Below are positions 1 to 47,125 of a stretch of DNA of 64,000 nucleotides, in pieces (position 1 is the first letter of the stretch; every line of letters begins with the position of its first letter). This stretch comes from a virus, in IMG/VR virus record IMGVR_UViG_3300025098_000012, positions 1-64,000 of that record; one strand, 5' to 3'. The notes under the pieces are model-generated. The model worked only from the letters and a program-made list of their open reading frames with translations, had not been told where the DNA came from and ran no database searches. The translations under genes were made by a program, and so were the position numbers.

Positions 1-2162
1 CTAAGACCACGATCAATAGATGGGTAGTCAAAGATCAGCTCGATAAAGATTTCTTTATCGCTTCCTGTAGACACTCCATTAGTCGCATCACCTACTAAAT
101 CGTAATCTCCTGCACCACTGATACCACCGTTGACTTTCAGTAAGGGGTTTGCGTCTAAAGTGAGAACGACTTGGTTTGACCCTAGACCTGTAATGCTTTG
201 AATACGAACTTGTTGCTCAATAGCGTTAACAAAATGTCCATCATTGTGCCAGCAATACCCGATGTCAATGAGCTTCGGTAGTATCGTGTTATTGTCAGCA
301 GGTAAGGGGTCATTATTGTTCTGAACCCAACCTAGATGCCCCGATATATCAAGAGTAGTCAGATCAATGGTGATCTGATCTCCCTCATACCAAAAGTTTC
401 CAGTACCCCCTACATGAGCAACAGATATACCTGTTGATGGTTGAGGGTTAGTGTTTGCAGGTTTGGCGATGATGTAAATTCGTTCTGTAGTAGGTTCGTT
501 TGACCATCTACGAGCGATGTGGTCAAAGTTCTGTCTCCATTGACCTAAGTTTGGAGCTATGTTTGCGTCATTCCTACCATACGCATCACACACAAGTGGT
601 GTATGACTGATACCACTCGAACCATCTCCTGTGGCTTGTAAGTTATGTGCCTTAGCATACCAAGTCTTATTCGTGTCATCTAACAGCGAGTGGTACTGAT
701 AGTCTAGCTCTGCCGAGAAATCAATTCCTCTAGGGTACACCCTTCGCCTTAAATCAAGGACATCGTATTCCGAGATTTGATCTGCGAATAGTCCATCGGG
801 TCGATCAGAACTTCCTACAGTGACATTACCCACATAGTCGTTATCTGCCAAAGTAGTACCGTCATGGTCATGTAATGCACCTGTATTAAAAGCACCTAGA
901 GTATTGAACCCATCAGCACCTAGATTGTCTGCTGTCCATCTACGAAAGACATAACAGATAGGGATAGCGTAGACATACCCATCAACAGTTCCGAGAGCAG
1001 TAGCGTCAGCCGAAGAACCTGTTCCTGCATACCATAGACCAGTATCGGTAGGGTGTTTAATAAAGTTGTATCCTCCGACAGTCCCACCTTGTGAGCCTTG
1101 AGCTTCAACATTGACATTCTCAAATCCAAAGATATGTTGAGACAAGTCAGTTGAAAAAGTGTCCATTCTAAGTCGGTATTGAACTTGGACTCTACGGGTA
1201 GAGGACACTGCTACATTTGGATCTTGGATTTTATCATCAAGGTATGTCGAGGAGTCTGAGAGTACATTCCCTGCAAAGTAAACTTTATTTGCGTTGGGTT
1301 TACCCTCGCCATTAGACCCACCTGCTGGCTGATTAAGAACCCTCATACCAGCATTATTTGAGCTTATAAGAGTGAAACTATCTGCTGTGCCATCATGGTT
1401 TCCATCTATTCCTCCATTATGGTTGAGGAATAGGTATTCTGTACCTCTAGTTTCAGCGAATGTGGTGACACCATCAACAGTCAGTCCAAGATTAGCACCG
1501 TCATAATCATTGATGGCTTGAGCTAGGTTGCGAGCTGTTTCGGCAGGGGTAGCACCAACTTGAAACTCATTTACCCCAATAACACCATTAGGGTCATCAA
1601 ATGCAGTTAAGATTTTGGTATCTTGGTTTTGCCCATTTAGAGGTGGTGGGTTGGATTGCCCATTTATTTGAAATTTGAATGTATCATTATGGAGAGGTGC
1701 GATGACCTTGATCCTAGACTTAGATTGCATAGCAGGAGTGACTTCTCTCCTCCATACTTCAAGGAATACAAATTCGCCTCTGTTTCCAGCACCAGCACCA
1801 GGTATGGGTCCAGGTAAAGTGATCTTGTTCGTACCATCAGTAGCATCGGTATTGCGAACATCAATGACCATTCCATTAACCATAGCTTTGAATGGGTTAA
1901 TGACGAAGCTGTTTGCTGTAAAGTCAGCGTTTAAGACTCCACCGACATAAGGATCTTCAAAAGAGAATGATCCTATAGTGTCATCTTGTCCTTGATAAGA
2001 AATCATGCCACTAGGGAGCGTGTTCTTCTTATTGAGGATGTCTTGGGTAAGGTTGAGTTCACTATCAAGCATAGGTCTACCTGCTTGATATACGACACTA
2101 TCCCACGCATAGTTTGTAGGGTCGAGATCCCGACTTGTAGAGGGAAGGTATTTTTTAGACAT
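1..2162 (-). CDS. Virion structural (tail fibre/baseplate-type) protein, C-terminus cut by window edge
   Basis: An open frame runs leftward from an ATG at 2162 to the window edge, giving at least 720 residues without a stop. A strong Shine-Dalgarno (AGGGGAG) precedes the ATG. The N-terminus reads MSKKYLPSTSRDLDP and continues with an acidic, Asn/Gly/Thr-rich, beta-strand-like composition with many aromatic residues and no enzyme motif that I recognise. This composition and its place at the distal end of a leftward baseplate operon fit a tail fibre or baseplate-attached structural protein. The phrase GRPMLDSELNLTQDIL near residue 30 looks like a conserved helical N-terminal docking segment. 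Exact function is not assigned and the C-terminal part is unseen. Confidence 0.75.
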   Translation of the reverse strand, partial: MSKKYLPSTSRDLDPTNYAWDSVVYQAGRPMLDSELNLTQDILNKKNTLPSGMISYQGQDDTIGSFSFEDPYVGGVLNADFTANSFVINPFKAMVNGMVIDVRNTDATDGTNKITLPGPIPGAGAGNRGEFVFLEVWRREVTPAMQSKSRIKVIAPLHNDTFKFQINGQSNPPPLNGQNQDTKILTAFDDPNGVIGVNEFQVGATPAETARNLAQAINDYDGANLGLTVDGVTTFAETRGTEYLFLNHNGGIDGNHDGTADSFTLISSNNAGMRVLNQPAGGSNGEGKPNANKVYFAGNVLSDSSTYLDDKIQDPNVAVSSTRRVQVQYRLRMDTFSTDLSQHIFGFENVNVEAQGSQGGTVGGYNFIKHPTDTGLWYAGTGSSADATALGTVDGYVYAIPICYVFRRWTADNLGADGFNTLGAFNTGALHDHDGTTLADNDYVGNVTVGSSDRPDGLFADQISEYDVLDLRRRVYPRGIDFSAELDYQYHSLLDDTNKTWYAKAHNLQATGDGSSGISHTPLVCDAYGRNDANIAPNLGQWRQNFDHIARRWSNEPTTERIYIIAKPANTNPQPSTGISVAHVGGTGNFWYEGDQITIDLTTLDISGHLGWVQNNNDPLPADNNTILPKLIDIGYCWHNDGHFVNAIEQQVRIQSITGLGSNQVVLTLDANPLLKVNGGISGAGDYDLVGDATNGVSTGSDKEIFIELIFDYPSIDRGL

Positions 2163-2174
2163 ATTCCACTCCCC

Positions 2175-2816
2175 TTAAAAAGTCAATCGCCAAGTGATTG
2201 CTAAGATTGCACCACTTGGTTTATTGATCACAGGGAATGTGAGGTAGTTTACGAGGATGTCGCTATTTGTAATGTTAATGTTCAGATCACGATCTGGAAA
2301 TACTTCAGCGATTTGACTAAACTCATTAGCCCCTCCCGACACACCCGAAACGGTACACATCAGACCCATCTCTGTTAACGCACCCACAGCGTCTGCCGAC
2401 TCAAATGTGGTTGTAAAGTCAACGATGTTTGTAGGTACAGCACTCAAATCACCATTTGGTTTGCGATATACACGACTCGTAAATATCTTTCTAAACAGAG
2501 GTGTGTTGAGATTGCGTTGTCTGTAATCTGCAATGTCGGGGCTTGCAGATGAACCCGAAGCACCTGTACCAACAGCGAGCATATCAATACCACGAGCGAA
2601 CCCTGCTCCTAAGTTCTTGGAGAACAAGACAGCCGCTAAGATACCACCATCGAGGGTATAGACATTCGATTTGTCTAAGACTATTTCTTCTCGTCCATCC
2701 TCATATTGGAGGACACCAAAGACATCACCTTTGACCCTAACTCCGAGCGTTTCCTCAAAGCCAAACCCAAAGTTAACAGCAGTTGTTTTAGGGGGTGGGA
2801 TTTTTGTAGAGATCAT
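2175..2816 (-). CDS. Small virion protein, probable tail fibre/baseplate accessory (213 aa)
   Basis: I chose the ATG at 2816 because GGAGG lies just upstream of it; a longer frame from 2849 has no such site. The product has no catalytic motif. Its C-terminal half contains FTTTFESADAVGALTEMGL and ends in a strand-rich tail (ITWRLTF). The upstream neighbour carries the equivalent elements (RFTTTFGTAQGNIAQGISEI and a YTLTF ending), so the two genes look like diverged paralogues. They follow the giant structural gene and precede another, so they are probably parts of the distal tail. Function is inferred from context only. Confidence 0.7.
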   Translation of the reverse strand: MISTKIPPPKTTAVNFGFGFEETLGVRVKGDVFGVLQYEDGREEIVLDKSNVYTLDGGILAAVLFSKNLGAGFARGIDMLAVGTGASGSSASPDIADYRQRNLNTPLFRKIFTSRVYRKPNGDLSAVPTNIVDFTTTFESADAVGALTEMGLMCTVSGVSGGANEFSQIAEVFPDRDLNINITNSDILVNYLTFPVINKPSGAILAITWRLTF

Positions 2817-2850
2817 ATTTTCCTCCATTTGAAGATATGGGGCTGACAAT

Positions 2851-2887
2851 GGAGGGTTATTTAAGACTTACAAATCTCCCACCCTCC
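2851..2887. other. Intercistronic hairpin
   Basis: A perfect 7-bp inverted repeat (GGAGGGT at 2851-2857, ACCCTCC at 2881-2887) encloses a 23-nt loop in the gap between two leftward structural genes. No U-run follows on the transcribed strand, so it is more likely an mRNA stability or attenuation element than a full terminator. Confidence 0.35.
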
Positions 2888-2896
2888 TACCTTAAT

Positions 2897-3613
2897 TTAC
2901 GCACCGAAAGTTAAGGTGTAGCTGATGTCTAGTGTACCATCATCAGTCTTTGTGATCGTGTTACCGAGAACTTTTCTTGCGAACAACCTCATGTTAGTAG
3001 TTTCTGTAGGCACTTCTGCTGATACGAAGCCCTCAATGTCAACATTGTCTCCTACTGTCCAGAGAGCGATTTCTGAAATACCTTGAGCTATATTTCCTTG
3101 GGCTGTTCCAAAAGTGGTGGTGAACCTAATGGATTTAGCAGAGGGGAAAGTAACAGAGTCTATAATCCGACTTCTGACTGCGGCATCGGTATGATCGTGG
3201 TTTGTGTCTACCATATCAACTTGTTTTGCAGGTTGTGCTACATCAGCATTAGCGTTAGCGTGTGGGTTATTGAGTGAGTCAGCACCGTTGTTATTTCCCA
3301 CACAGATATAACCGATTTGGTTTATGTTTGAGGTCTCTTGAGTATGAAGTAAACCATTACCAATCCCAGTAGGGCCGATGTATAGACCACCAGTAGGATG
3401 AGTGGCATTATTAGTTATCGGTGCAGTAACAGGTCTTACAGCGGCGGCAATTCCATTACCAGCAGTTCCAAGTCTGGGGTAGATAGCGTCCATAACGATG
3501 TTATTCGACATCTCTACGACAGTGTTTTCACCTTTTTCATAGGCGATAACATTCCCATCAAGGTCTCTGAGTGTTGCTTCTACGAAGCCTTTGATTACGA
3601 GTGTACTTTTCAT
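2897..3613 (-). CDS. Virion structural protein, paralogue of the following gene (238 aa)
   Basis: Starts at an ATG preceded by GAAGGAA. The N-terminus (VIKGFVEATLRDLDGNVIA, followed by YEKGENTVV) resembles the opening strands of phage fibre or decoration proteins that describe a small beta domain. The C-terminus ends in a strand, DISYTLTFGA. The region around residues 165-200 (SIRFTTTFGTAQGNIAQGI) matches the equivalent region of the 213-aa product downstream, which supports a duplication. It lies directly downstream of the 1875-aa structural gene in a leftward run. A tail fibre or baseplate role is inferred from position; no binding or catalytic residues are apparent. Confidence 0.7.
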   Translation of the reverse strand: MKSTLVIKGFVEATLRDLDGNVIAYEKGENTVVEMSNNIVMDAIYPRLGTAGNGIAAAVRPVTAPITNNATHPTGGLYIGPTGIGNGLLHTQETSNINQIGYICVGNNNGADSLNNPHANANADVAQPAKQVDMVDTNHDHTDAAVRSRIIDSVTFPSAKSIRFTTTFGTAQGNIAQGISEIALWTVGDNVDIEGFVSAEVPTETTNMRLFARKVLGNTITKTDDGTLDISYTLTFGA

Positions 3614-3670
3614 GGTTGATTCCTTCAGTTAAGGGTTGTTTGCATTATACTGACCATAATAAATAAAGTA

Positions 3671-6600
3671 TTAAGGTCTTGAAGCTGGATCATGTTCCCA
3701 TGCTACAAATCCATCATCTCTAATGTAGAAATAATGCCTATATGTAACAGTTCCAGTATTTACATCCTTTTGGAACAGGTTTGTGTATGTGAGTGTGTCA
3801 GAAGAGTTATATACAGTGTTGTAAGAAGCTCCAGTATCAATGACTGGATTAGCTCTGATGAACAATCCCACATCTACACCTGGGTGGTCTGCTGATACTG
3901 CGATCATTTTATACCTCTTCGCTCTGAGAAGTGAATAAGACAAAGGGGCTATATTGTCTGGGTTTGAGTAAGTTCTATATCCATATGTGGACAGGAAAGT
4001 ACCATTGACTACTTGGTTGTTAAATGCATTTATCCCATTAACAGGGGTTGTGTGTACAGTAGGCTCAATGAAGTTTGTCTCATTATTGAGGTTAGAGCTT
4101 GAAGCTACCTCTGTGTTGTCTGCTTCACATATTCGTATTGACCAAAACTCATTATTAGCGTTTGCGTTCACAATCATGTAAAAGTAAACAGTAGTAAAAT
4201 CGTTCCCATAATTTACAGAAGGTTCTGATACATAAGACTGATCTTCTGTAAACAAGAGGTCTTGTTCCACAGACCTTAGTCTGAATGTGTGGTACTTGAA
4301 ATAGCGATCATCAGCGTTCAGTGTACCTGTACCAGTCGGTGAGTTTCCTAAATCTGTATAAGTTTCCCCACTCAAGTAGTTGACTGGATCTGTGTTCGCT
4401 CTACCCCTTTTCATTGCTAACGGGCAGATCTCTGCCACATCAGAAATAGCAGTGGCTTGGAAGAAGATCGTGTAATCTTTATCCTCATCAAGAGGTCCTA
4501 TTCTCATCGTAGTTGTATCGTCTGCGTTATCATACTCCACCCAAGCGTTCAGTGAAGGAATTGAGTAAGGATTTACAGGACTGACTACCTGTCTTGACCT
4601 CCCTAAAGTAGTCTCTTGAGTCCAAGTATAAGTATTTTGTCCTGCGTCTACATAGTTTACATAACTATTTACATAAACGAGGCTGTCCATATATGTCCCA
4701 GCTTCATATATGTGCAACTCGAACCCAAACCATCCATTTGGGTATTTAAGTGCCATATAAACATAATCCCCTGCAATCACATTGTAAACAACATCGACAT
4801 CATCAACCACAGTAATTGGGTTTTCTGAATTGCTCTGGTTTGTTGAAGAGATAAAGGCAATAGCATCTGCATTAAAAGTGAAGGTATCTTCTAAGGGGAT
4901 GCCAATACCTAAGAGACAAGAATCAGTGGTTGTTGAAACTGTATCACCAGTAAATAACCTTAAGAATGATTCAATGTTACCATCCAGAACTTGGGGTGTT
5001 GTATCGTCTACATAAAGAGCTAGACTCGTGGCGATAAGATCACCAAGGGCTGGTATATCTCCCTTCATATCAAGAGACATATATCTTGGAACAATCAGTG
5101 AGTCGAGGATCTCTTCGGTCACATCCTCGATTGTGATTGATCTGCTTAGGCTAATACTATCTTGCAACGCACTAAAAGTGTCTTGGGCATTGAATGATGA
5201 AATATGAGAAGTTAAAGCGTCTTCTATGGGGTCAACGACATCATTAAAGTTGATGCTAGAGATATAAGAGATAACAGAGTCCTCACTAGCAAGAACATCA
5301 TCATTCAAGAACACTGGTACAAATCCTTGTTGTGTACTTACCTCATCTGTGATGTCTGGTATCAAACTGCTTGTTGATCTAGGCAAGAACAGGTAACTGG
5401 CTAAGAACCCATCTTCATCTGAGATCTGCCTAAACTCACTAGACACACCAATGCCAGATATGTAAGTGGATACTTCGTCTGTAATCAGAGAGATTGTTGA
5501 AGAAGGAACTACCCTCATGAATACAGGAGCATTTACTTCATCTTGAATCTCTGGGTAAATGTCCGAAACATTCCCATCGCTAAGTATATAGCTGTACTCA
5601 ACAATTTCTTCTATTTGAGGGAAATCAGATTGTTCGAGGACGGCAATATAATTTAACGCCCAAAGCACACTGTCTTCAATGTCTGGGATACTTTGATTGA
5701 TGTGTGATGGTGTAAGCAATAAGGTTGTTGTGAGAGCATCTGTGGGTAGATTAAATGAATCTGATAGATGTGTCCCAGGTATGATGATTTTATTTGCTTC
5801 AAGTTCTGCTATGATCGAGGGGAATCTGTCATCTACGCTTGTAAAGAAGAAACCAGTCGTTTCAAAAGACCCTTTCCACCCTAGATTTATTGAGGGTGGA
5901 GTTGCATAGTTATCGTTAGCCGAGTACCCAATGTTTTGGGAGTTATCTTCGATTAGATTAGTCGTTCTCCGATTGCTCCTCGTCAAAGATTCAAAAGATC
6001 TGATTTCACCTGGATTGAGTGTGAATGTAATCTCATAGGTATAGGTCACATTATTGACGGGAACCACAGCAGTGGATTGGTCTAGTCTGTACGCATGGGG
6101 AGATGTAGTCCAAGATGACTCAAGATCAAAGTTTGCATCAGTACCGCTTGTGAGGAAGTAAAGGTAATCAGCCCCATTATCTTCTTCCATGAAAACTTCA
6201 AGGAAGTATGTTTCATTAGCGAGGTGGTTAAATGATGCGTTGATTTCTGCTAGGAAGTTTGGTGCTGGGGCATTGTCATAATCTATAGTGTTTGGTGAAC
6301 CAAGACTGTCATCCCTAAACCTATAGGCGAGTGGTGATCCATTAGGTACAGGGTTGGGGTATTGTTCGAGGGCTGTAAACCCATTAGAGTCAGCTCTCAG
6401 TGATAGAGTTTGGTATTGTCTGTTTCCTTGAGCGTCTATCCTATATAGACTGAAATAGAATCCATCTCCACCCGAAGTATTTAGGTTGCTGTACCCGAAG
6501 AAGAAATGAGTGGGGATGTTGATTGGTCCTAATATGTAAAGTGATGGGTCTGGATATAACCATTCATCTTGTGGTACATGGGGGTTGTAGTCGTTTGTAA

Positions 6601-37177: not shown

Positions 37178-37525
37178 TTAAGATTTCCACCAATCATCGA
37201 ACGCACCCCATTCGATCATCTCATATAGATCAGTAGGGATCGACCCGACACAATCATGGTGAAACCACTCACCATTTTGCCTTATACGCCACCTTTTAAG
37301 GTCTTCATGTAGGTGTGGTTCTCTCCACCCTAAACCTTCAAAAGAGGCTATAAGACGAAGCGTATTTGAGTTTCCTGTTTGAAGTTGCTTGAGTCTCTTC
37401 TTTGGGTGCTTAGAGCGACCTATCTTAATCATCCCTGTTTTGCTTTACTGGATGAAGTACAGATAGTCGCCCTGCTTTCGTTGCTTCTGCTCACGATTTC
37501 TATTTAACATTTCTTCTAAAGTCAT
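37178..37525 (-). pseudogene. T5orf172/GIY-YIG-like gene with an in-frame stop
   Basis: A frame starting at ATG 37525 with an excellent ribosome site (AAGGAG, seven-base spacing) encodes 26 residues ending GDYLYFIQ, then a TAA at 37445-37447. Reading straight on in the same frame gives SKTGMIKIGRSKHPKKRL, exactly the continuation expected for the T5orf172/MUG113 GIY-YIG-like domain. The rest includes the expected LQTG and GEWF motifs, ending at 37178. An internal ATG at 37432 could start a truncated 84-aa product but has no spaced Shine-Dalgarno. So this is a gene broken by one stop, a recoding case or a sequencing error. Confidence 0.75.
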
Positions 37526-37573: not shown

Positions 37574-38749
37574 TCAGAAAAAATACTCATTATCATTCCA
37601 TTTAGGTTCGGGTGTTAAACCCTTACTCCAAATGAAGATCGGCTCACAAGTTGGTTGGTCTGTTTTCTGACCACCTCGCTCGGACATACGATAGCCAACC
37701 ACACCCTCATAGGTCGCTCCTAAGTTCTTCATGTGGTCAAGCATTGGTGTGCAGATGTCCTCTCCTTTTTTATCTGCAATGTTGATTGCTATCCGACCAC
37801 CTTCTTTGAGTACAGACCAACATTTAGTGAGGGTAGCGAGTAAGAAATCATTCACCCAATCATTAAGGTTTGGATAACGCTTCCACGATTGAGTCTCCTC
37901 CTCACTATATCTCTCGATGTCGAAGTAAGGAGGACTCGTGAAAACGAAGTCTACACTTATGTCAGATAAATCAGCATCCTCAGCAGGGGAACAGATAAAC
38001 CTAGTCGTTTTGCCTGTATCACAGAGGCTGACGATTTGCTTGTATGGCTCATGGAGCTGAGTATTAGGATCTATACCTATGTACGACTCAGCGTTCGAGG
38101 CGAGGAAGCCTACAAGCCTATCACCCCAACCAGCCGAGAAATCTAAGACGCTTTTGGGTTGGAACAGGTCATAGAGAGCTTTAGCCGACTCAGCTTTAAA
38201 CTGACTCGCAGTATAGGTGTGCATCTTTAAGGCTCTTCTGAGGGTTTGCTTATTGACTCCACCTCTCTCATAGATGTCTCTTTCACAAATGCCGAAGAAG
38301 CATCTTAGGAACGAGTTGCTTCTACTCGCATTGACCCACTCATCATAGGGTGAGTTTCCTTGTTTACGATAGCTACATTTCATTCTCTGTTCTTGGGTGA
38401 ACAGATTGGAAACAGTTTTCCCTCTATAGTAGTTATCAAGGTAGACTGACTTGCCTAGATAACTTGTGTCTAAGGGTTTAGCTTGACGAGGAGCGACCCA
38501 CCCTTCAAAGCAGAATGGATCTTTCCTTGCTTTGAGGGATTTAAAATCCTCGATTGCCATCTCTCTTGTGTACTCGAAGTACGGATAGGGCAAAGACTCA
38601 ATAATGGGTGCTAGATGGTCTTTGATCTGTTCCTTACTATATGTCTCACGAAGCATACTCCATTCGTTAGGGAGTATGTGAAGATACCCATCTTTAATGT
38701 ACTCGATGTCATCTAGCGAATTAAGATTGGTCTTATATTCAAAGTACAT
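37574..38749 (-). CDS. SPPY-type SAM-dependent methyltransferase, cassette copy C (391 aa)
   Basis: SAM-binding motif I is LDFSAGWGDRLVGF (~202-215), the next strand gives YIGIDPN, and the catalytic loop is FTSPPYFD (~270-277), the S/D-P-P-Y class used by amino-methyltransferases of DNA (N6-adenine or N4-cytosine). A ~200-residue N-terminal domain (SNSFLRCFFGI, THTASQFK-like region) precedes it and is probably substrate-recognising. It is paralogous to the two 401-aa products upstream but more diverged. It is the last intact gene of the modification cassette and directly abuts the PLP gene. The methyl acceptor could be a modified base rather than A or C. Confidence 0.8.
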   Translation of the reverse strand: MYFEYKTNLNSLDDIEYIKDGYLHILPNEWSMLRETYSKEQIKDHLAPIIESLPYPYFEYTREMAIEDFKSLKARKDPFCFEGWVAPRQAKPLDTSYLGKSVYLDNYYRGKTVSNLFTQEQRMKCSYRKQGNSPYDEWVNASRSNSFLRCFFGICERDIYERGGVNKQTLRRALKMHTYTASQFKAESAKALYDLFQPKSVLDFSAGWGDRLVGFLASNAESYIGIDPNTQLHEPYKQIVSLCDTGKTTRFICSPAEDADLSDISVDFVFTSPPYFDIERYSEEETQSWKRYPNLNDWVNDFLLATLTKCWSVLKEGGRIAINIADKKGEDICTPMLDHMKNLGATYEGVVGYRMSERGGQKTDQPTCEPIFIWSKGLTPEPKWNDNEYFF

Positions 38750-39610
38750 TTAAGCACCTAAGTTCCAGAATAGGGTTTTCCCTTTTAACTTGTAAGGGTT
38801 TTCAGTGATCCACTCCCACGCTTTTTTATCCCAAAGTTTATTGCAAGGGAAAGGGGTTGTGAAGTGATCCATCTCATCGTAGAAATCAAACTCTGACTTA
38901 TAAATCTTGAGGCAAGATGGAACGCTACCAAGATTAGAGATCAGAGCATTTTGTATTGTCTTAACGCTAGAAGTAGCAACGATTACAATCTTCTTGCCTT
39001 CAAAGTCTGGCTCAAACATCGCTCCTGCAATGTAATCAACACCTAAGAAACCTTTAATCAGCCCAACACTTGTGATCCCACTTCCGCCTTGAATGACTAG
39101 GGTGTTGTACTCATTTTGAGAAAAGAACTCTTTAGAACGCTCTGTCCAATAGTTGATATAGACAGGGTGGTTGAACGCATCTGGACTCATTTGCCAATTA
39201 TTTTTTCTAGCCATCTTCTTTGTCTGAGAAGACAAGATAGCTACCATGTTGTGTCTTAAGGGGATCAGCTCTCCACCGTACAGCTCGATCTTCTTAAGAA
39301 TTTCTTGAGAGTACGCTTTTGTGTTTGGGTAAGCTATTTTGATGTCATAACCTAGCTCTTTGCCCCAATAGGCTAACGCCCAGCCTGTATATGATCCTCT
39401 AACTGTGAGATGTACGATGGGCTTATCTTTTGTGAAATAGTCTGAGGAGAGAAGTCTCCTTATGCCTTCAAGTTTAGCCCAAGGGGGGAGGTCGAGAGTT
39501 CCGTTGAGCAGATCATCTCTTTTGACATCGACATTTTTGTGTTTGACTTTGTAAGTTTCAATCGGTGTATTAAAATTTAGCACTAAACATTGCCTTTTCT
39601 TCAAACTCAA
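38750..39610 (-). CDS. Fold-type II PLP-dependent enzyme homologue (286 aa)
   Basis: It resembles the ACC deaminase/cysteine synthase/threonine synthase fold. VKRDDLLNG is followed by PPWAKLEGIRRLL (the candidate Schiff-base Lys46, equivalent to GNKxRK), then RGSYTGWALAYWGKELGY in the place of the substrate loop, and QGGSGITSVGL (~174-184) as the phosphate-binding loop. These enzymes do beta-elimination, replacement or deamination on amino acids. Shorter than usual (300-350 aa). The start overlaps the PP-loop gene, and the stop abuts the methyltransferase. In this setting it might transfer an amino-acid-derived group to a modified base; that is inference. Confidence 0.7.
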   Translation of the reverse strand: MSLKKRQCLVLNFNTPIETYKVKHKNVDVKRDDLLNGTLDLPPWAKLEGIRRLLSSDYFTKDKPIVHLTVRGSYTGWALAYWGKELGYDIKIAYPNTKAYSQEILKKIELYGGELIPLRHNMVAILSSQTKKMARKNNWQMSPDAFNHPVYINYWTERSKEFFSQNEYNTLVIQGGSGITSVGLIKGFLGVDYIAGAMFEPDFEGKKIVIVATSSVKTIQNALISNLGSVPSCLKIYKSEFDFYDEMDHFTTPFPCNKLWDKKAWEWITENPYKLKGKTLFWNLGA

Positions 39611-40481
39611 TGTCCTTGAGTATTTGGTTATATATTGCTCTTGTGTCTTTATATGAAGTGCCTTTTAACAGCACTCTTCTATGTAAACCTTTTAGACCAC
39701 CGTCAGTGCCTGTAGTATGGAAGTTTGATCTGTTCGTATTGTGTTTATCAAAGTATTCTTTATGTGTATGCTGAGTAATGAACCATTTAGGTTGGATCTT
39801 ATTATTTGCAGGATTAATGAGTAGCTGATCCCATAGTAAAGTCTTACATAAAGATTCTATTTGAGGTGTGCGAAAAGGACACAACACTTCAACCCCTGTT
39901 TTTTTTAAAAATTGTCTTATCACCCACAAGTTGTGTGGGCTACCAGAGAGGTACTTTTCCTCTAACTGTTTCTCTACTAAGTTTTTAAAATAGTTATCGA
40001 GGGAAGCCCTAGACCCACCTTTTTTGTATGCACCCCAAAGGCTGTTGATTTTAGCTCCTGTATGAGCAAACATCGTAGTGTAAAAGCCTGTTACTAGATA
40101 AGGTGTAGTTATCAACTGTCTCATGTAAGTATAAGCATGACAAACCTGTGTCTCTATATTCCTCGTTGTGCGTGTAATCTTAATGACTTCTTTAACTTCC
40201 CTTAACAGGTCATCACGAATGGGATTTGAGGGTATCACTGCAACTTTCAAAGGTAGGTCATAATGCTTTGCTATTTGTCGAGCATACTCAAGGTCTTTGG
40301 AATACTCACCTTCAATCTCAAAGGTAATCAACTCTTTTGGTGGCCTTCCTAGTTCTATCATTGTGAACAAAAGCATGGAAGAGTCTATCCCACCAGAAAA
40401 CGATAAACTGATTTCATTGGGAAGGTTTTTCACAGAGTCATAGATTGCTTCTTTAAAGTCTTGTACCCATGTGTGTGTCAT
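39570..40481 (-). CDS. PP-loop ATPase, asparagine-synthetase C-domain-like (303 aa)
   Basis: The PP-loop SFSGGIDSSMLLFT (~27-40) is intact. A second strand (PLKVAVIPSN) and the downstream HTGAKINSLWGAYKKGG region match asparagine-synthetase-type adenylating enzymes. There is no N-terminal glutaminase Cys domain, so ammonia or an amine would have to come from elsewhere. Such stand-alone PP-loop enzymes activate carboxyl or carbonyl groups by AMP and form amides or thio compounds. The gene overlaps both its neighbours (41 and 29 bp), a sign of stoichiometric coupling with the TS-like and PLP products. Confidence 0.8.
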   Translation of the reverse strand: MTHTWVQDFKEAIYDSVKNLPNEISLSFSGGIDSSMLLFTMIELGRPPKELITFEIEGEYSKDLEYARQIAKHYDLPLKVAVIPSNPIRDDLLREVKEVIKITRTTRNIETQVCHAYTYMRQLITTPYLVTGFYTTMFAHTGAKINSLWGAYKKGGSRASLDNYFKNLVEKQLEEKYLSGSPHNLWVIRQFLKKTGVEVLCPFRTPQIESLCKTLLWDQLLINPANNKIQPKWFITQHTHKEYFDKHNTNRSNFHTTGTDGGLKGLHRRVLLKGTSYKDTRAIYNQILKDIEFEEKAMFSAKF

Positions 40482-41160
40482 ATCTTCTCATCAACTCTCT
40501 TGAGTTTTTTAACTCATTGTTTTGAGTTCTTACATGACAAGAATGAGCAAACGAGGTTACGAGTCCGAAATCTAAACAGCCACTCTCTTTACAGAGAAAA
40601 TCACAGAGATCAACGAGTGCCATATAGTCTGCGTATCCAGACTTAGATACAGCTTGGCTTCTAAAGTTAGCTGTTAAGTTAAGTTTCCCACCTCTAGGTT
40701 TCAAGTCGATTGTCAGTAAGCAAGGCAAACCGCCCATTACTTTTTTACCATCCGATTGAGGATCATACACACCAATAACGATTGTTTTAGCTTGCTTGTT
40801 CTCTCTTAGTCTCTTGATCGCCTGCTCGATTTGATTAAATCCACCGTTCCAAGAAATCATGCGACCCCAATAACTATTTGTCCATTTCCCCTCTTTGTTC
40901 TGTTTATACTCCAACATTTGTGGGAACAACATATTCGGTTCTGGCTTCACAAATGTAACAGACTTAGCGTAGTCGATACGCTCATCTCCAAAGATGCCTC
41001 TGAACTCCCGATCAAATACAGGACAAACATCGGATGATTTGATCTCGATACCCATGTTCAAGATCTCATAAAGACCACCCATATTCATGCCTTTGTCAAG
41101 AATGTCTTGAGTCGCTTTGACCCATGCTTCTGCACAGTTATTTGCTGTTATATGGTACAT
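40453..41160 (-). CDS. Thymidylate-synthase/dNMP hydroxymethylase homologue (235 aa)
   Basis: The TS core is recognisable: GLPCLLTIDLKPRGGKLNLT around the catalytic Cys147, then FRSQAVSKSGYADYMALVDL, where RS (167-168) is the phosphate-binding pair. SYWGR (~96-100) matches the TS Tyr-Gly region. The usual LGLPFN block that reads the pyrimidine is replaced by SKSGYADYM, so specificity (dUMP, dCMP or another) is altered. The protein is shorter than TS (264+ aa). It overlaps the PP-loop gene and follows the methyltransferases by 3 bp. A hydroxymethylase that seeds base hypermodification is the most economical reading. Confidence 0.8.
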   Translation of the reverse strand: MYHITANNCAEAWVKATQDILDKGMNMGGLYEILNMGIEIKSSDVCPVFDREFRGIFGDERIDYAKSVTFVKPEPNMLFPQMLEYKQNKEGKWTNSYWGRMISWNGGFNQIEQAIKRLRENKQAKTIVIGVYDPQSDGKKVMGGLPCLLTIDLKPRGGKLNLTANFRSQAVSKSGYADYMALVDLCDFLCKESGCLDFGLVTSFAHSCHVRTQNNELKNSRELMRRYDTHMGTRL

Positions 41161-41163
41161 ATC

Positions 41164-42369
41164 TTATACTCCAAAGTAGCTATCTTGAGTCCACTTAGGT
41201 TCGGGGGCTGAACCCTTACTCCAAATGAAAATCGGCTCACAGAATACATCCATCTTGGATAGCTCATCATTTAATGAGTGATGGTTTCCTGGTCTCTTTG
41301 CCATACGATAACCAATCACTCCCTCATAGTTTGCCCCTAATGAATTCATATACTCGATCATGGGCTGACACACTCGGATGTTTCCTCTTACTTTATCGGA
41401 GATGTTTACGCATATCCTCCCTCCCTCTTCTAAGCAATCCCAACATTGCTTGAGGGTTGGGTAAAGAAACCCATTCAGCCAATCGTCAGTCTCTGGATAA
41501 CGCTTCCATGATTGAGTCTCTTCTTGACTATATTTCTCGGTGTCGAAATAAGGTGGACTCGTGAAAACGAAGTCTACTTTAACATCGGACAGGTCAGCAT
41601 CTTCGGCAGGTGAACAGATGAACCTAGTGGTCTTACTCGTAGAACAATAATCAGCGATCTTCTGATAAGGTTCATGTAACTTTGTGTTAGGGTCGAGTCC
41701 TACATAGGACTCGGCATCAGAAGCGAGGAATCCAACTAATCTATCGCCCCATCCCATAGAGAAATCCAATACTCTTTTAGCTCCGAAGAAGTTATACATA
41801 GCCTTAGCTAAAGTAGGTTTGAACTGTGCAGGGATATAACCAGACATACCGATAGCGTTTACAAGTATCTTGCTGTTCACACCTTTTGACGGATCATACA
41901 ATGTCCATAAAGGTCTAAGGAACGCTCTCTTTTTGGACTTGAGGTTAGTTCGTGTCCATTGTCTCATTGCACTTGGGAACTGCTTATGGTCTACCTCTAA
42001 ACGCATAGGTTCACTATATTGATTAGAGACTTTGAGTCCTTTGTTATTAGGTGCGAAGTAAAGATACTTACCTTTGTAAGTATGGTCTTCGTCTAACTGA
42101 CATCGAGGCAATCCCCAAGCACCCGATTGAGGGATCATGTAATCGGACTGAACCTCCAACCAATCTTTCTTGATCTCTTGTGGTGTGTACTTAGTGAGGG
42201 GGTAAGGTAAATCTTCAATCTTTGCAGACAGATAATCAGTGATCTCATCTCTGCTAAAGCTATCTACCATTTCTAACCACTGATGGGGTGGGATAAAGAT
42301 TTCATCCCCTTTCAAAACCTCATACTCTTCTAGGTTATCTTTTTTGGTTTTTTCATAGTCAAAGAACAT
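41164..42369 (-). CDS. SPPY-type methyltransferase, cassette copy A (401 aa)
   Basis: Motif I LDFSMGWGDRLVGF (~201-214) and catalytic FTSPPYFDTEKYS (~269-281) define the enzyme class. The sequence is roughly three quarters identical by eye to the 401-aa product upstream, with the same length. Differences are spread through the N-terminal domain (for example SAMRQWTRTNLKSKKRAF against SAMTQWTRIGMKGDKRYF-like text), the likely recognition region. The leader CTTGAAAGGATTTAAGT is shared with the upstream copy, so the duplication included the ribosome site. It ends 3 bp before the TS-like gene. Confidence 0.85.
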   Translation of the reverse strand: MFFDYEKTKKDNLEEYEVLKGDEIFIPPHQWLEMVDSFSRDEITDYLSAKIEDLPYPLTKYTPQEIKKDWLEVQSDYMIPQSGAWGLPRCQLDEDHTYKGKYLYFAPNNKGLKVSNQYSEPMRLEVDHKQFPSAMRQWTRTNLKSKKRAFLRPLWTLYDPSKGVNSKILVNAIGMSGYIPAQFKPTLAKAMYNFFGAKRVLDFSMGWGDRLVGFLASDAESYVGLDPNTKLHEPYQKIADYCSTSKTTRFICSPAEDADLSDVKVDFVFTSPPYFDTEKYSQEETQSWKRYPETDDWLNGFLYPTLKQCWDCLEEGGRICVNISDKVRGNIRVCQPMIEYMNSLGANYEGVIGYRMAKRPGNHHSLNDELSKMDVFCEPIFIWSKGSAPEPKWTQDSYFGV

Positions 42370-42402
42370 ACTTAAATCCTTTCAAGATACTTACTTATAA
42401 GA

Positions 42403-43608
42403 TTATATCTTAAAGTAAGTATCTTGAGTCCATTTAGGTTCGGGAGCTGAACCCTTACTCCAAATGAAAATCGGTTCGCAAAACACATTTACCTTAGACA
42501 GATCCTCGTTCAATGAGTGATGGTTTCCTGGTCTCTTCGACATCCTATAACCAATCACTCCCTCGTAAGTAGCACCTAATGACTCCATGTATTCAATCAT
42601 GGGTTGGCATACTCGTATATCACCATAAACCTTGTCTGATATATTGACGCAGATCCGTCCTCCGTCTTCTAATACCTCCCAACATTTTTTAAGAGTCGGG
42701 TAAAGAAATCCATTGAGCCAGTCATCTGTTTTGGGGTATCTCTTCCAACTCTGAGTATCTTCTTGGCTATACTTCTCGGTATCAAAGTAAGGAGGGCTTG
42801 TGAAGATAAAGTCTACTTTAACATCAGTTAGGTCTGCATCCTCAGCTGGAGAACAAATGAACTTAGTTTCTTTGTTTGCATTACAGTACGAATCTATTTG
42901 TCCATAAGGTTCATGGAGCTTAGTGTTAGGGTCGAGTCCTACATAGGACTCAGCGTCAGAAGCCAGAAACCCTACGAGCCTATCGCCCCACCCCATTGAG
43001 AAATCTAAGACCTTCTTTGCACCGAAGAAGTTATACATAGCTTTAGCTAGTGTTGGTTTGAACTGTGCAGGTATGTAATAAGCCATATTTATAGCGTTAA
43101 AGAGCATTTTCCTATTAACCCCTTTAGACCTGTCGTATAGGGTGAAAAAGGGTCTAAGGAAGTATCTCTTATCGCCTTTCATCCCTATACGAGTCCATTG
43201 AGTCATAGCACATTTGTACTCTCGATGATCTACTAATACTCTTGCGAACTCGGTGAACTGATTAGAGACTTTGAGTCCTTTGTTATTAGGTGCAAAGTAA
43301 AGATGCCTACCTTTATAAGTATGGTCACCATCTAACTGACATCGAGGCAATCCCCACTCTCCTGTGATTAGAGGCATATAGTCCGACTGAGTATCTAGCC
43401 AATCACGATGCACTTCTTGAGGAGTATATTTAGTATATGGGAATGGCAGTCCTTCAATCTTGCTTGATAGGTAAGTGATGATCTCATCACGAGTAAACTT
43501 ATCAAGCATCTCTGACCACTGATGAGGGGGTATGAAGATCTCTTGTCCTCTTACGACATCATATTCCTCTATGTCTTCTTTGGGTTTCTTTTCATAATCA
43601 AAAAACAT
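42403..43608 (-). CDS. SPPY-type methyltransferase, cassette copy B (401 aa)
   Basis: Same architecture as copy A: N-terminal domain ~1-195 with NKGLKVSNQF and AQFKPTLAKAMYNFFGAK, motif I LDFSMGWGDRL, YVGLDPN, catalytic FTSPPYFDTEKYS and a conserved C-terminal FCEPIFIWSKGSAPEPKW. It differs from copy A mainly in the N-terminal domain. The 33-bp spacer after it and the spacer before it are near repeats (ACTTATAAGATTATA is shared), marking the boundaries of tandem duplication. Two close copies retained intact suggest either dosage need or different targets. Confidence 0.85.
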   Translation of the reverse strand: MFFDYEKKPKEDIEEYDVVRGQEIFIPPHQWSEMLDKFTRDEIITYLSSKIEGLPFPYTKYTPQEVHRDWLDTQSDYMPLITGEWGLPRCQLDGDHTYKGRHLYFAPNNKGLKVSNQFTEFARVLVDHREYKCAMTQWTRIGMKGDKRYFLRPFFTLYDRSKGVNRKMLFNAINMAYYIPAQFKPTLAKAMYNFFGAKKVLDFSMGWGDRLVGFLASDAESYVGLDPNTKLHEPYGQIDSYCNANKETKFICSPAEDADLTDVKVDFIFTSPPYFDTEKYSQEDTQSWKRYPKTDDWLNGFLYPTLKKCWEVLEDGGRICVNISDKVYGDIRVCQPMIEYMESLGATYEGVIGYRMSKRPGNHHSLNEDLSKVNVFCEPIFIWSKGSAPEPKWTQDTYFKI

Positions 43609-43637
43609 ACTTAAATCCTTTCAAGACACTTATAAGA

Positions 43638-43923
43638 TTATACTCCAAAGTAAGTATCTTGAGTCCATTTAGGTTCGGATGGGTTAGAACCTTTATACCA
43701 AACAAAGATCGGTTCGCAAAACACGCACCCTCCAACAACCCCTTGATTTTCCTGGTCTCTTTTTCGTCCTGTATCCGATAACTCCCTCATATGATTTCTT
43801 TCCTTGTGTATTGATCTAGGATAGAATCCCACAGGTCAGACGGTATTGAGAACTCGTTGTTCTCATTTAATAGCTTTATCTCCTTGAGGGGTGGGAGTTT
43901 AGGCTTTTCGATTTCAAAAACAT
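43638..43923 (-). pseudogene. Collapsed fourth copy of the SPPY methyltransferase
   Basis: The ATG at 43923 overlaps the helicase stop (TAATG). After one frame change within a T-run, the reading gives FEIEKPKLPPLKE and then IPSDLWDSILDQYTRKEII. This aligns with the first ~45 residues of the intact copies (IPPHQWSEMLDKFTRDEII). At about 43788-43795 it jumps directly to the C-terminal part, YEGVIGYR and KKRPG, losing ~300 codons. A second frame change then leads to VFCEPIFVWYKG and KWTQDTYFGV, ending at 43638. So it is an internally deleted, frameshifted gene remnant. Confidence 0.8.
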
Positions 43924-46249: not shown

Positions 46250-47125
46250 ATGATCAAGTCGCCTCTTAATTACATTGGAGGGAAATCAAAGCTGTTAACT
46301 CAAATCGTACCCAGATTCCCTACTCAAGTTGATACCTTTGTAGACCTCTTCGCAGGAGGGTGTACTGTAGGCTTAAATGTTCGCTCAAATAAAACTATCT
46401 TCAATGATAATCTAACTTACTTGATAGACCTATATCGGAAGCTACAAGATTTAAGTGCCGAAGAGGTTTTTGAACACATAAATGGAAGGATTGACACTTT
46501 AGGTCTTTCTAAAACGAATGAGACTGGATACATCGCCTTAAGGTCTGAGTACAATGCAAACAAAAATCCGTTAGACTTGTTTGTTCTAGTGGCATACTCA
46601 TTCAACCATCAAATTAGGTTCAACAATAGCCATCAGTTCAACTTGCCTTTTGGTAAAGACAGAAGCCACTTCAATAAAACAATGAAGAGAAACCTTCGCT
46701 CGTTCTTAACGAGAATTAAAGAGATGGACTGCACATTTTCAAATGTCTCTTTTGAGGACTTTGATTTCTCGGATCTGACTAAGGAGGATCTTGTTTACTG
46801 CGATCCTCCTTACTTGATCTCTACTGGAAGTTATAATGATGGAAAGCGTGGCTTTAAAGGATGGGGGAATACAGAAGAGGAATGTCTACTAGACTTGCTC
46901 GACAGTTTAAATGAGAGAGAGGTACGCTTTGCTTTATCTAATGTCGTGGAACATAAGGGAGAAGAAAACAATCTCCTCAAAGATTGGGTTGGGGATAGAG
47001 GGTACAACCTCTACCCTCTTAACTTTGACTACAAAAACAGCTCATATCAAGGTTCTTCAGAAGGTGAGACTAAGGAAGTGCTTATAACTAACTACCCAAC
47101 GAACTATTCTCTTTTGTTTTTTTGA
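46250..47125 (+). CDS. dam: Dam-type (D12 class) DNA adenine methyltransferase (291 aa)
   Basis: NYIGGKSKLL (~7-16) and DLFAGGCTVG (~32-41) form the SAM-binding start, and YCDPPYL (~183-189) is the N6-adenine catalytic loop. SFNHQIRFNNSHQFNLPFGK is the Dam-typical recognition region. This is the D12/DpnM class that methylates adenine, often in GATC. The gene is the only rightward one between two leftward replication blocks, with CAGGAG upstream and a TATAAACA box at 46215. The independent orientation suggests later acquisition. It is distinct from the three SPPY methyltransferases nearby. Confidence 0.92.
   Translation: MIKSPLNYIGGKSKLLTQIVPRFPTQVDTFVDLFAGGCTVGLNVRSNKTIFNDNLTYLIDLYRKLQDLSAEEVFEHINGRIDTLGLSKTNETGYIALRSEYNANKNPLDLFVLVAYSFNHQIRFNNSHQFNLPFGKDRSHFNKTMKRNLRSFLTRIKEMDCTFSNVSFEDFDFSDLTKEDLVYCDPPYLISTGSYNDGKRGFKGWGNTEEECLLDLLDSLNEREVRFALSNVVEHKGEENNLLKDWVGDRGYNLYPLNFDYKNSSYQGSSEGETKEVLITNYPTNYSLLFF

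Follow-up and report, generated by a model that had tools for sequence, protein, structure and literature searches.

A recurrent phage cassette of thymidylate-synthase-like, PP-loop and PLP enzymes with methyltransferases as a candidate pathway for amino-acid-type modification of cytosine in DNA

What does a phage build with a thymidylate-synthase-like protein (TSl), a PP-loop protein, a pyridoxal 5'-phosphate (PLP) enzyme and several methyltransferases (MTs) encoded side by side? The question is raised by a locus in the virus record IMGVR_UViG_3300025098_000012. The stretch analysed, referred to here as the window, covers positions 1 to 64,000 of this 226,698-bp record. Six intact leftward genes and the remnant of one more MT gene are closely packed or overlapping within positions 37574-43918 of the minus strand (Table 1). 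A first-pass annotation made from the letters alone had taken the cluster for a candidate DNA hypermodification system. Comparison with other phages, active-site residues and structure models point in the same direction. We hold with good confidence that the cassette serves DNA base modification in general. With moderate confidence it can be read as a phage-borne pathway that places an undescribed amino-acid-derived group on cytosine of phage DNA, diversified MTs giving the sequence context.

The gene set recurs in other phages. Relatives were collected from viral contigs, first by single-protein searches and then by a PLP profile search (80 loci). The single-protein searches gave five cassette contigs: one identical in the cassette proteins (L006), one near kin with TSl identity of up to 98% (L002), two more distant lineages (L003 and L004), and L005 with the same gene layout as L004. 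In all five, the TSl, PP-loop and PLP genes keep one order, overlap or lie a few bases apart, and are surrounded by two to six MT genes. When lineages are counted at the 93% level of TSl identity, the TSl contigs form 17 lineages below this level, from uncultivated phages. An MT gene is adjacent, one or two genes off, or fused in 27 of the 27 TSl contigs that extend far enough upstream; L050, the 28th, is truncated. PP-loop or AsnB genes occur in 27 of the 28 contigs, and a PLP or radical SAM (S-adenosylmethionine) gene in all of them. The cassette is not a chance assembly, because the same order of the three genes with flanking MTs is found in independent phage contigs. The first-pass annotation had proposed searching for the gene set in other phages and had named missing linkage as an argument against itself; this objection is answered by the 17 lineages, and its view of a DNA-base hypermodification cassette gains support from linkage in many genomes. 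Searches of openly licensed papers gave no description of the gene set as such.

The composition of the cassette varies. Type A, to which the window belongs, comprises MT(n), TSl, short PP-loop, PLP and MT(n). Type B contains MT, TSl, a full-length AsnB with glutaminase, and PLP (e.g., L049, L070, L044, L128, L129). In L141 and L085 the gene order is TSl, PLP, PP-loop. A radical SAM gene is additional in L050 and substitutes for PLP in L144 and L145. In L143 (4486-6891), radical SAM is fused to an N6_N4-type MT in a protein of 801 aa encoded directly downstream of the TSl gene. Type C cassettes have PLP and MT with no TSl nearby (L046, L071, L073, L075, L077, L082, L084), and their partners are 2-hydroxyacid dehydrogenase-like, Asp/Arg-hydroxylase-like, glycosyltransferase-like (a weak match) or AsnB genes. 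The MT gene overlaps the PLP gene in L071, and a gp44-like clamp-loader gene is close to the cassette in L046 and L071. Genome scans of 84,980 bacterial and archaeal genomes revealed no relatives of TSl or PLP, so both families appear to be restricted to phages.

The TSl has the thymidylate synthase (TS) fold with its catalytic Cys, as follows from the PF00303 match above cut-off, the invariant Cys147 and the Foldseek matches to the TS superfamily. In 16 aligned cassette TSl sequences, Arg167, Ser168, Asp178 and His209 are invariant along with Cys147. The residues typical of dTMP (thymidine monophosphate) synthesis are different in the alignment to E. coli TS. Asp178 replaces Asn177, and Asp169 is absent: the window has Ala170 here, other sequences have Arg or a different residue, and none of the 16 has Asp. 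The Arg126/127 pair of E. coli TS is Lys-Thr in the window TSl. The block SKSGYADYM aligns an Asp with E. coli position 177, where all 16 cassette sequences have this residue. Asp at this position of TS selects cytosine (PMC8670742, PMC6400193), Asp169 orients the pterin (PMC6400193), and MilA has Lys at the place of Arg126 (PMC5175136). The substrate ring of TSl is probably cytosine.

Among solved structures, those closest to TSl in sequence profile are MilA, the best match in the PDB (2e-7), and the TS-superfamily entries 9iqu/9iqc. A fold search with the TSl model (mean predicted local distance difference test, pLDDT, 87) ranks 9iqc first, MilA second and 9iqu fifth. The titles of 9iqc/9iqu refer to a riboflavin-dependent monooxygenase with dCMP (deoxycytidine monophosphate) and FAD (flavin adenine dinucleotide) and to the dCMP hydroxylase AfhB of phage HY126. 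The 5-hydroxy-dCMP synthases are TS-superfamily enzymes with an activity distinct from that of hydroxymethylases (PMC13390438). With Asp169 lost and a flavin-dependent dCMP hydroxylase as its best match by fold, TSl need not be a hydroxymethylase, and the first step may yield a hydroxymethyl, a hydroxyl or another group. The earlier proposal that the TS-like enzyme seeds a hydroxymethyl base stands as regards a non-canonical TS; hydroxymethyl is only one of the possible products, and the base is most likely cytosine, with Asp at 177 throughout.

It is highly improbable that TSl merely makes dTMP for the phage and that its neighbours are unrelated. Such a role would agree with the weak Pfam TS match, which exceeds the cut-off, and with the NCBIfam methanogen TS match of 67.8 bits, which is under the cut-off; it conflicts with Asp for Asn at position 177, with the loss of the Asp169 and Arg127 equivalents, and with the fixed linkage to PLP, PP-loop and MT genes. 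Plain dTMP synthesis is also unlikely because five cassette phages have a separate ThyX or ThyA. G001, G002 and G003 have ThyX. In G015 and G016 it is a second TS of ordinary strength, which reads PPCH and LGVPFN in G016 (L149) and has one in-frame stop within the match in G015. TSl was rejected as a plain thymidylate synthase on position 177 and on the additional ThyX/ThyA.

The PLP enzyme has homologues in a known base-modification cassette. Its relatives among named phages are solely threonine-dehydratase-like proteins of M6-type phages (Yuavirus), at 27% over 97%. The alignment of the window and M6 enzymes has 31% identity, K46 matches the M6 Lys, and the motifs PFPCN and FWNxG are common to both. 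The PLP gene is listed among the base-modifying genes of the SN1/M6 cassette (PMC9476957), and the homology supports the earlier suggestion that the window PLP is an amino-acid-handling enzyme. In a tree of 54 members, the cassette and M6-like clades are separated at 100/100. The TS-type and type C cassettes are intermixed within the cassette clade, which suggests that cassette PLPs swap partner genes. The M6 PLP reportedly decarboxylates the amino acid on the base. The amino-acid:DNA transferase ADDT (PF18724) and the 5-hydroxymethyldeoxyuridine (5-hmdU) kinase HMUDK (PF18723, PF18748) were detected in the M6 control and in none of ten cassette contigs, some of them incomplete. For this reason the cassette does not belong to the M6 pathway, which was rejected as such; from the amino-acid stage onward it may work like M6. 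The cassette radical SAM proteins have no detectable similarity to the M6 isomerase gp53 and were rejected for that role. Phmmer searches of the PLP and PP-loop proteins against the PDB gave nothing useful.

The PP-loop protein of the window lacks the Cys2 glutaminase and the GEGSDE motif while retaining the PP-loop, and it does not qualify as AsnB. The SGG...S signature is kept in all aligned relatives but that of PaBG (SSG). The window protein resembles an AsnB-related enzyme of carboxylate amidation, minus the glutaminase; a role of this kind replaces the earlier idea that it adds an amino-acid-derived group. No stand-alone glutaminase was found in window-type phages. The type B form (e.g., L049) is a complete class-II amidotransferase with MCGI/Cys2, GATase_7 and GEGSDE; it passes the asparagine-synthase cut-off TIGR01536 and might simply make asparagine.

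Asparagine synthesis would suit an explanation in which TSl, PP-loop and PLP act on small molecules, either in auxiliary metabolism or towards a mildiomycin-like nucleoside, and the MTs are ordinary anti-restriction methylases sharing the operon. The closeness of TSl to MilA of nucleoside-antibiotic biosynthesis, with Lys at the place of MilA Lys133, and the occurrence of the MT family alone in other phages are compatible with it. It accounts poorly for the loss of the Asn-synthase motif in the window PP-loop, for a PLP homologous to an enzyme of a DNA-hypermodification cassette, and for the presence of an MT near TSl in every contig except the truncated one, in varying positions and including the overlap with PLP and the fusion to radical SAM described above. 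We consider this explanation unlikely.

A modification of cytosine is also suggested by other relatives of the PP-loop protein. The short PP-loop family is present in four isolated phages, Staphylococcus F1, Synechococcus S-B43, Pseudomonas PaBG and Erwinia Y3. Its neighbour in all four is a gene for a CmoA-like carboxy-S-adenosylmethionine (carboxy-SAM) synthase, with NCBIfam E-values of 9e-49 to 3e-33, none of which reaches the curated cut-off. A C5-cytosine DNA methyltransferase (C5-MTase) gene is found beside the two in F1, S-B43 and PaBG. The C-terminal motif of this enzyme is GR(M/S)VPP in S-B43 and PaBG. Ordinary C5-MTases have GN at the place of GR, and an engineered change at that Asn allows a C5-MTase to use carboxy-SAM. 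The trio is a candidate for natural DNA carboxymethylation followed by amidation. Because the short PP-loop family recurs beside CmoA-like and C5-MTase genes, it is suggested that its members activate a cytosine-linked carboxylate, that is, amidate a carboxylate borne on C5. No CmoA-like gene was found in the cassette phages.

All three intact MTs of the window contain TSPPYF and keep the SAM motif DxSxGWGDR, the two lying in one Rossmann domain according to Pfam, alignments and the model. The MT-A model (pLDDT 89) is matched in the fold search over the catalytic domain only, by exocyclic-N methyltransferases such as Trm11. MT-B is 78% identical to MT-A, and MT-C is 88% identical to the gene in the same position of L002, a contig with six MT copies vs. 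three and a remnant in the window. Among the MT copies of window-type phages, mean identity is 30% in the first 180 residues vs. 65% in the remainder, a pattern expected if specificity diversifies. The remainder of the 226,698-bp record, scanned as stretches for cassette families only, contains no further members of the MT family. Solitary members of the family are present in phages of Vibrio, Staphylococcus/Mammaliicoccus and Bacteroides, and the Vibrio relative is annotated as an N4-cytosine enzyme.

This annotation, together with the resemblance of TSPPYF to N4-cytosine enzymes, bears on another possibility: the MTs could themselves use a SAM analogue to install a non-methyl group (e.g., carboxymethyl or aminocarboxypropyl) on N4 or C5 of cytosine, and TSl, PP-loop and PLP would prepare or finish it. 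Across cassette types no partner is more constant than the MT, and the parallel system joins the same PP-loop family with a carboxy-SAM synthase and a C5-MTase. Against these observations stand the missing CmoA-like gene, MT motifs that look like standard SAM binding, and the solitary MTs of other phages. Installation by the MTs seems quite unlikely.

For the amino-acid-type modification of cytosine, we infer a sequence of steps from enzyme families, gene neighbourhood and active-site residues. TSl Cys147 would attack C6 of a cytosine nucleotide, with Asp178 reading the ring, and C5 would be functionalised with a hydroxymethyl or hydroxyl group. The type-II PLP enzyme would then work at the alpha-carbon of an amino acid attached at this site, which it would install by beta-replacement or trim as in M6. 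The PP-loop protein would use ATP to activate a side-chain carboxylate for conversion into an amide; ammonia would be supplied in trans, since the glutaminase domain is missing. The SPPY MTs, copied and diversified in the N-terminal half, would act on an exocyclic N, either of the same base or of its neighbours, and provide the sequence context. Phage DNA would thus be protected from restriction or other DNA-targeting defence. The linkage, residues and homologies behind this scheme are observed; how the steps follow one another, which group is added and what the MTs do are put forward conditionally.

Several points weigh against this pathway. With the M6 kinase and amino-acid:DNA transferase missing, the installing step is left without an assigned enzyme. 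Decarboxylation of the M6 type would leave no alpha-carboxylate for amidation by the PP-loop protein, so the second and third steps cannot both follow the M6-like version. No dUTPase_2-type or PRA-PH-type dCTPase was found in the window phage, which argues against full cytosine replacement of the T4 style. The asparagine-synthase score of the type B enzyme and the solitary MTs count on the same side. A broader scheme is offered tentatively, as possible rather than probable: a modular phage-only system that makes amino-acid- or carboxamide-bearing cytosines without the known kinase and transferase. TSl, maybe folate-free, would open C5, PLP or radical SAM would build the side chain, PP-loop or AsnB would amidate it, and the rapidly diversifying MT family would set the context or install the group; the CmoA-like trio would be a sister system of DNA carboxymethylation and subsequent amidation.

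Table 1. Features of the window cassette and of the related CmoA-like/PP-loop clusters in isolated phages (aa, amino acids)
Feature	Sequence	Position	Strand	Evidence
SPPY methyltransferase C (MT-C), 391 aa	window	37574-38749	-	Pfam N6_N4_Mtase 28.9 bits (cut-off 26.7)
PLP enzyme, 286 aa, TTG start, fold type II (threonine dehydratase/cysteine synthase-like)	window	38750-39610	-	phrog_7093 6e-23
PLP Lys46 codon, presumed Schiff-base lysine	window	39473-39475	-	invariant among 13 cassette PLPs and gp52 of M6
Short PP-loop protein, Asn_synthase-like without glutaminase domain, 303 aa	window	39570-40481	-	Pfam Asn_synthase 33.2 bits
PP-loop motif SGGIDSS, residues 29-35	window	40377-40397	-	read directly in sequence
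Thymidylate-synthase-like protein, predicted cytosine type (TSl), 235 aa	window	40453-41160	-	Pfam Thymidylat_synt (PF00303) 27.1 bits, above cut-off
TSl Asp178 codon (E. coli TS position 177; Asp = cytosine-type)	window	40627-40629	-	invariant in 16 TSl sequences
TSl catalytic Cys147 codon (E. coli TS Cys146)	window	40720-40722	-	invariant in 16 TSl sequences
SPPY methyltransferase A (MT-A), 401 aa	window	41164-42369	-	Pfam N6_N4_Mtase 33.3 bits
SPPY methyltransferase B (MT-B), 401 aa	window	42403-43608	-	Pfam N6_N4_Mtase 37.5 bits
Remnant of fourth MT copy with internal deletion (N- and C-terminal pieces)	window	43641-43918	-	tblastn with MT-A/MT-B, C-terminal pieces 64-82%
CmoA-like/PP-loop/C5-MTase cluster	L012 (Staphylococcus phage vB-SscS-F1)	7260-9778		
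CmoA-like/PP-loop/C5-MTase cluster	L159 (Synechococcus S-B43)	3273-5895		
CmoA-like/PP-loop/C5-MTase cluster	L160 (Pseudomonas PaBG)	1647-4801		
CmoA-like and PP-loop genes, only these two in the stretch	L161 (Erwinia Y3)	3139-4807		

The gene map of the first-pass annotation was borne out. The five overlapping or abutting leftward genes (MT-A, MT-C, TS-like, PP-loop and PLP) and MT-B are all present on the minus strand, the decayed MT copy upstream is real, and the listed motifs (SPPY in three copies, Cys147, the Arg167-Ser168 pair of TSl, SGGIDSS and the GGSGITS loop of PLP) can all be seen directly. The PLP and PP-loop genes overlap by 41 bp and the PP-loop and TSl genes by 29 bp; MT-C abuts the PLP gene, and the end of MT-A is 3 bp from TSl. 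The PLP enzyme scores 32.1 bits against Pfam PALP, slightly below the 35-bit cut-off. The PHROGs matched among cassette proteins are phrog_7093, phrog_26038 and phrog_160. Megablast of the cassette region against named phages gave no match.

Other genes were observed near the cassettes. A small T5orf172/MUG113 (GIY-YIG-like) gene lies directly downstream of MT-C (window 37178-37432) and is a cassette neighbour in L002 too. A D12-class (Dam-like) adenine methyltransferase gene is close to the cassette on the opposite strand (window 46250-47125); at this place, flanked by an SNF2-helicase gene and by the gene upstream of dnaB, L002 has two additional SPPY MTs. A GNAT acetyltransferase gene comes right after the short PP-loop gene in L085 (12924-13562). 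Homing-endonuclease-type domains are in frame with cassette-family genes in L128 (7233-8687), L123 (5784-9473) and L122 (6933-8867). They include GIY-YIG/NUMOD3 ahead of a TSl gene, LAGLIDADG ahead of an MT, and Vsr-like/NUMOD3/zinc-finger domains ahead of an MT.

To our knowledge, amino-acid-based decoration of DNA has so far been found on thymidine only (M6, ViI). If the proposed pathway is true, an amino-acid-type hypermodified cytosine, built in a new way, would join the counter-defence chemistry of phages, and given the 17 lineages this chemistry would be widespread in nature and so far overlooked. The virome labels asparagine synthase, threonine dehydratase and thymidylate synthase would then need re-reading as DNA-modification genes. 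The cultured phages F1, S-B43 and PaBG carry the CmoA-like/PP-loop/C5-MTase trio, so that part of the idea is accessible in isolates already at hand.

Among known systems, the thymidine hypermodification of M6/YuA, 5-(2-aminoethyl)-dU (deoxyuridine), resembles the cassette in combining a TS-superfamily enzyme with a homologous type-II PLP, and in the radical SAM genes of some cassette relatives (L050, L143-L145). Unlike the cassette, M6 has ADDT and a 5-hmdU kinase and acts on uracil/thymine (PMC9476957, PMC6449724), and no PP-loop or MT is annotated in its cluster. An Asp-177 TS-superfamily enzyme acting on cytosine is found both in T4, as dCMP hydroxymethylase with a glucosyltransferase, and in the AfhB/Mosigvirus system, as 5-hydroxy-dCMP synthase with an arabinosyltransferase (PMC6400193, PMC13390438). 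In contrast to these, the window TSl is without Asp169 and Arg127, and its cassette has PLP, PP-loop and MT partners in place of a glycosyltransferase. The CMP 5-hydroxymethylase MilA of mildiomycin synthesis shares the highest profile similarity and the Lys with TSl, whereas TSl has Ser168, the deoxy-type Ser, for MilA Ala176 and belongs to a phage operon with DNA MTases. The carbamoyltransferase and TS pair found by MetaGPA in environmental phages, which makes 5-carbamoyloxymethyl-dC (deoxycytidine), likewise unites an Asp177-type TS with a decorating enzyme (PMC8670742); in the cassette no role falls to a carbamoyltransferase, and the predicted decorators are PP-loop/AsnB and PLP.

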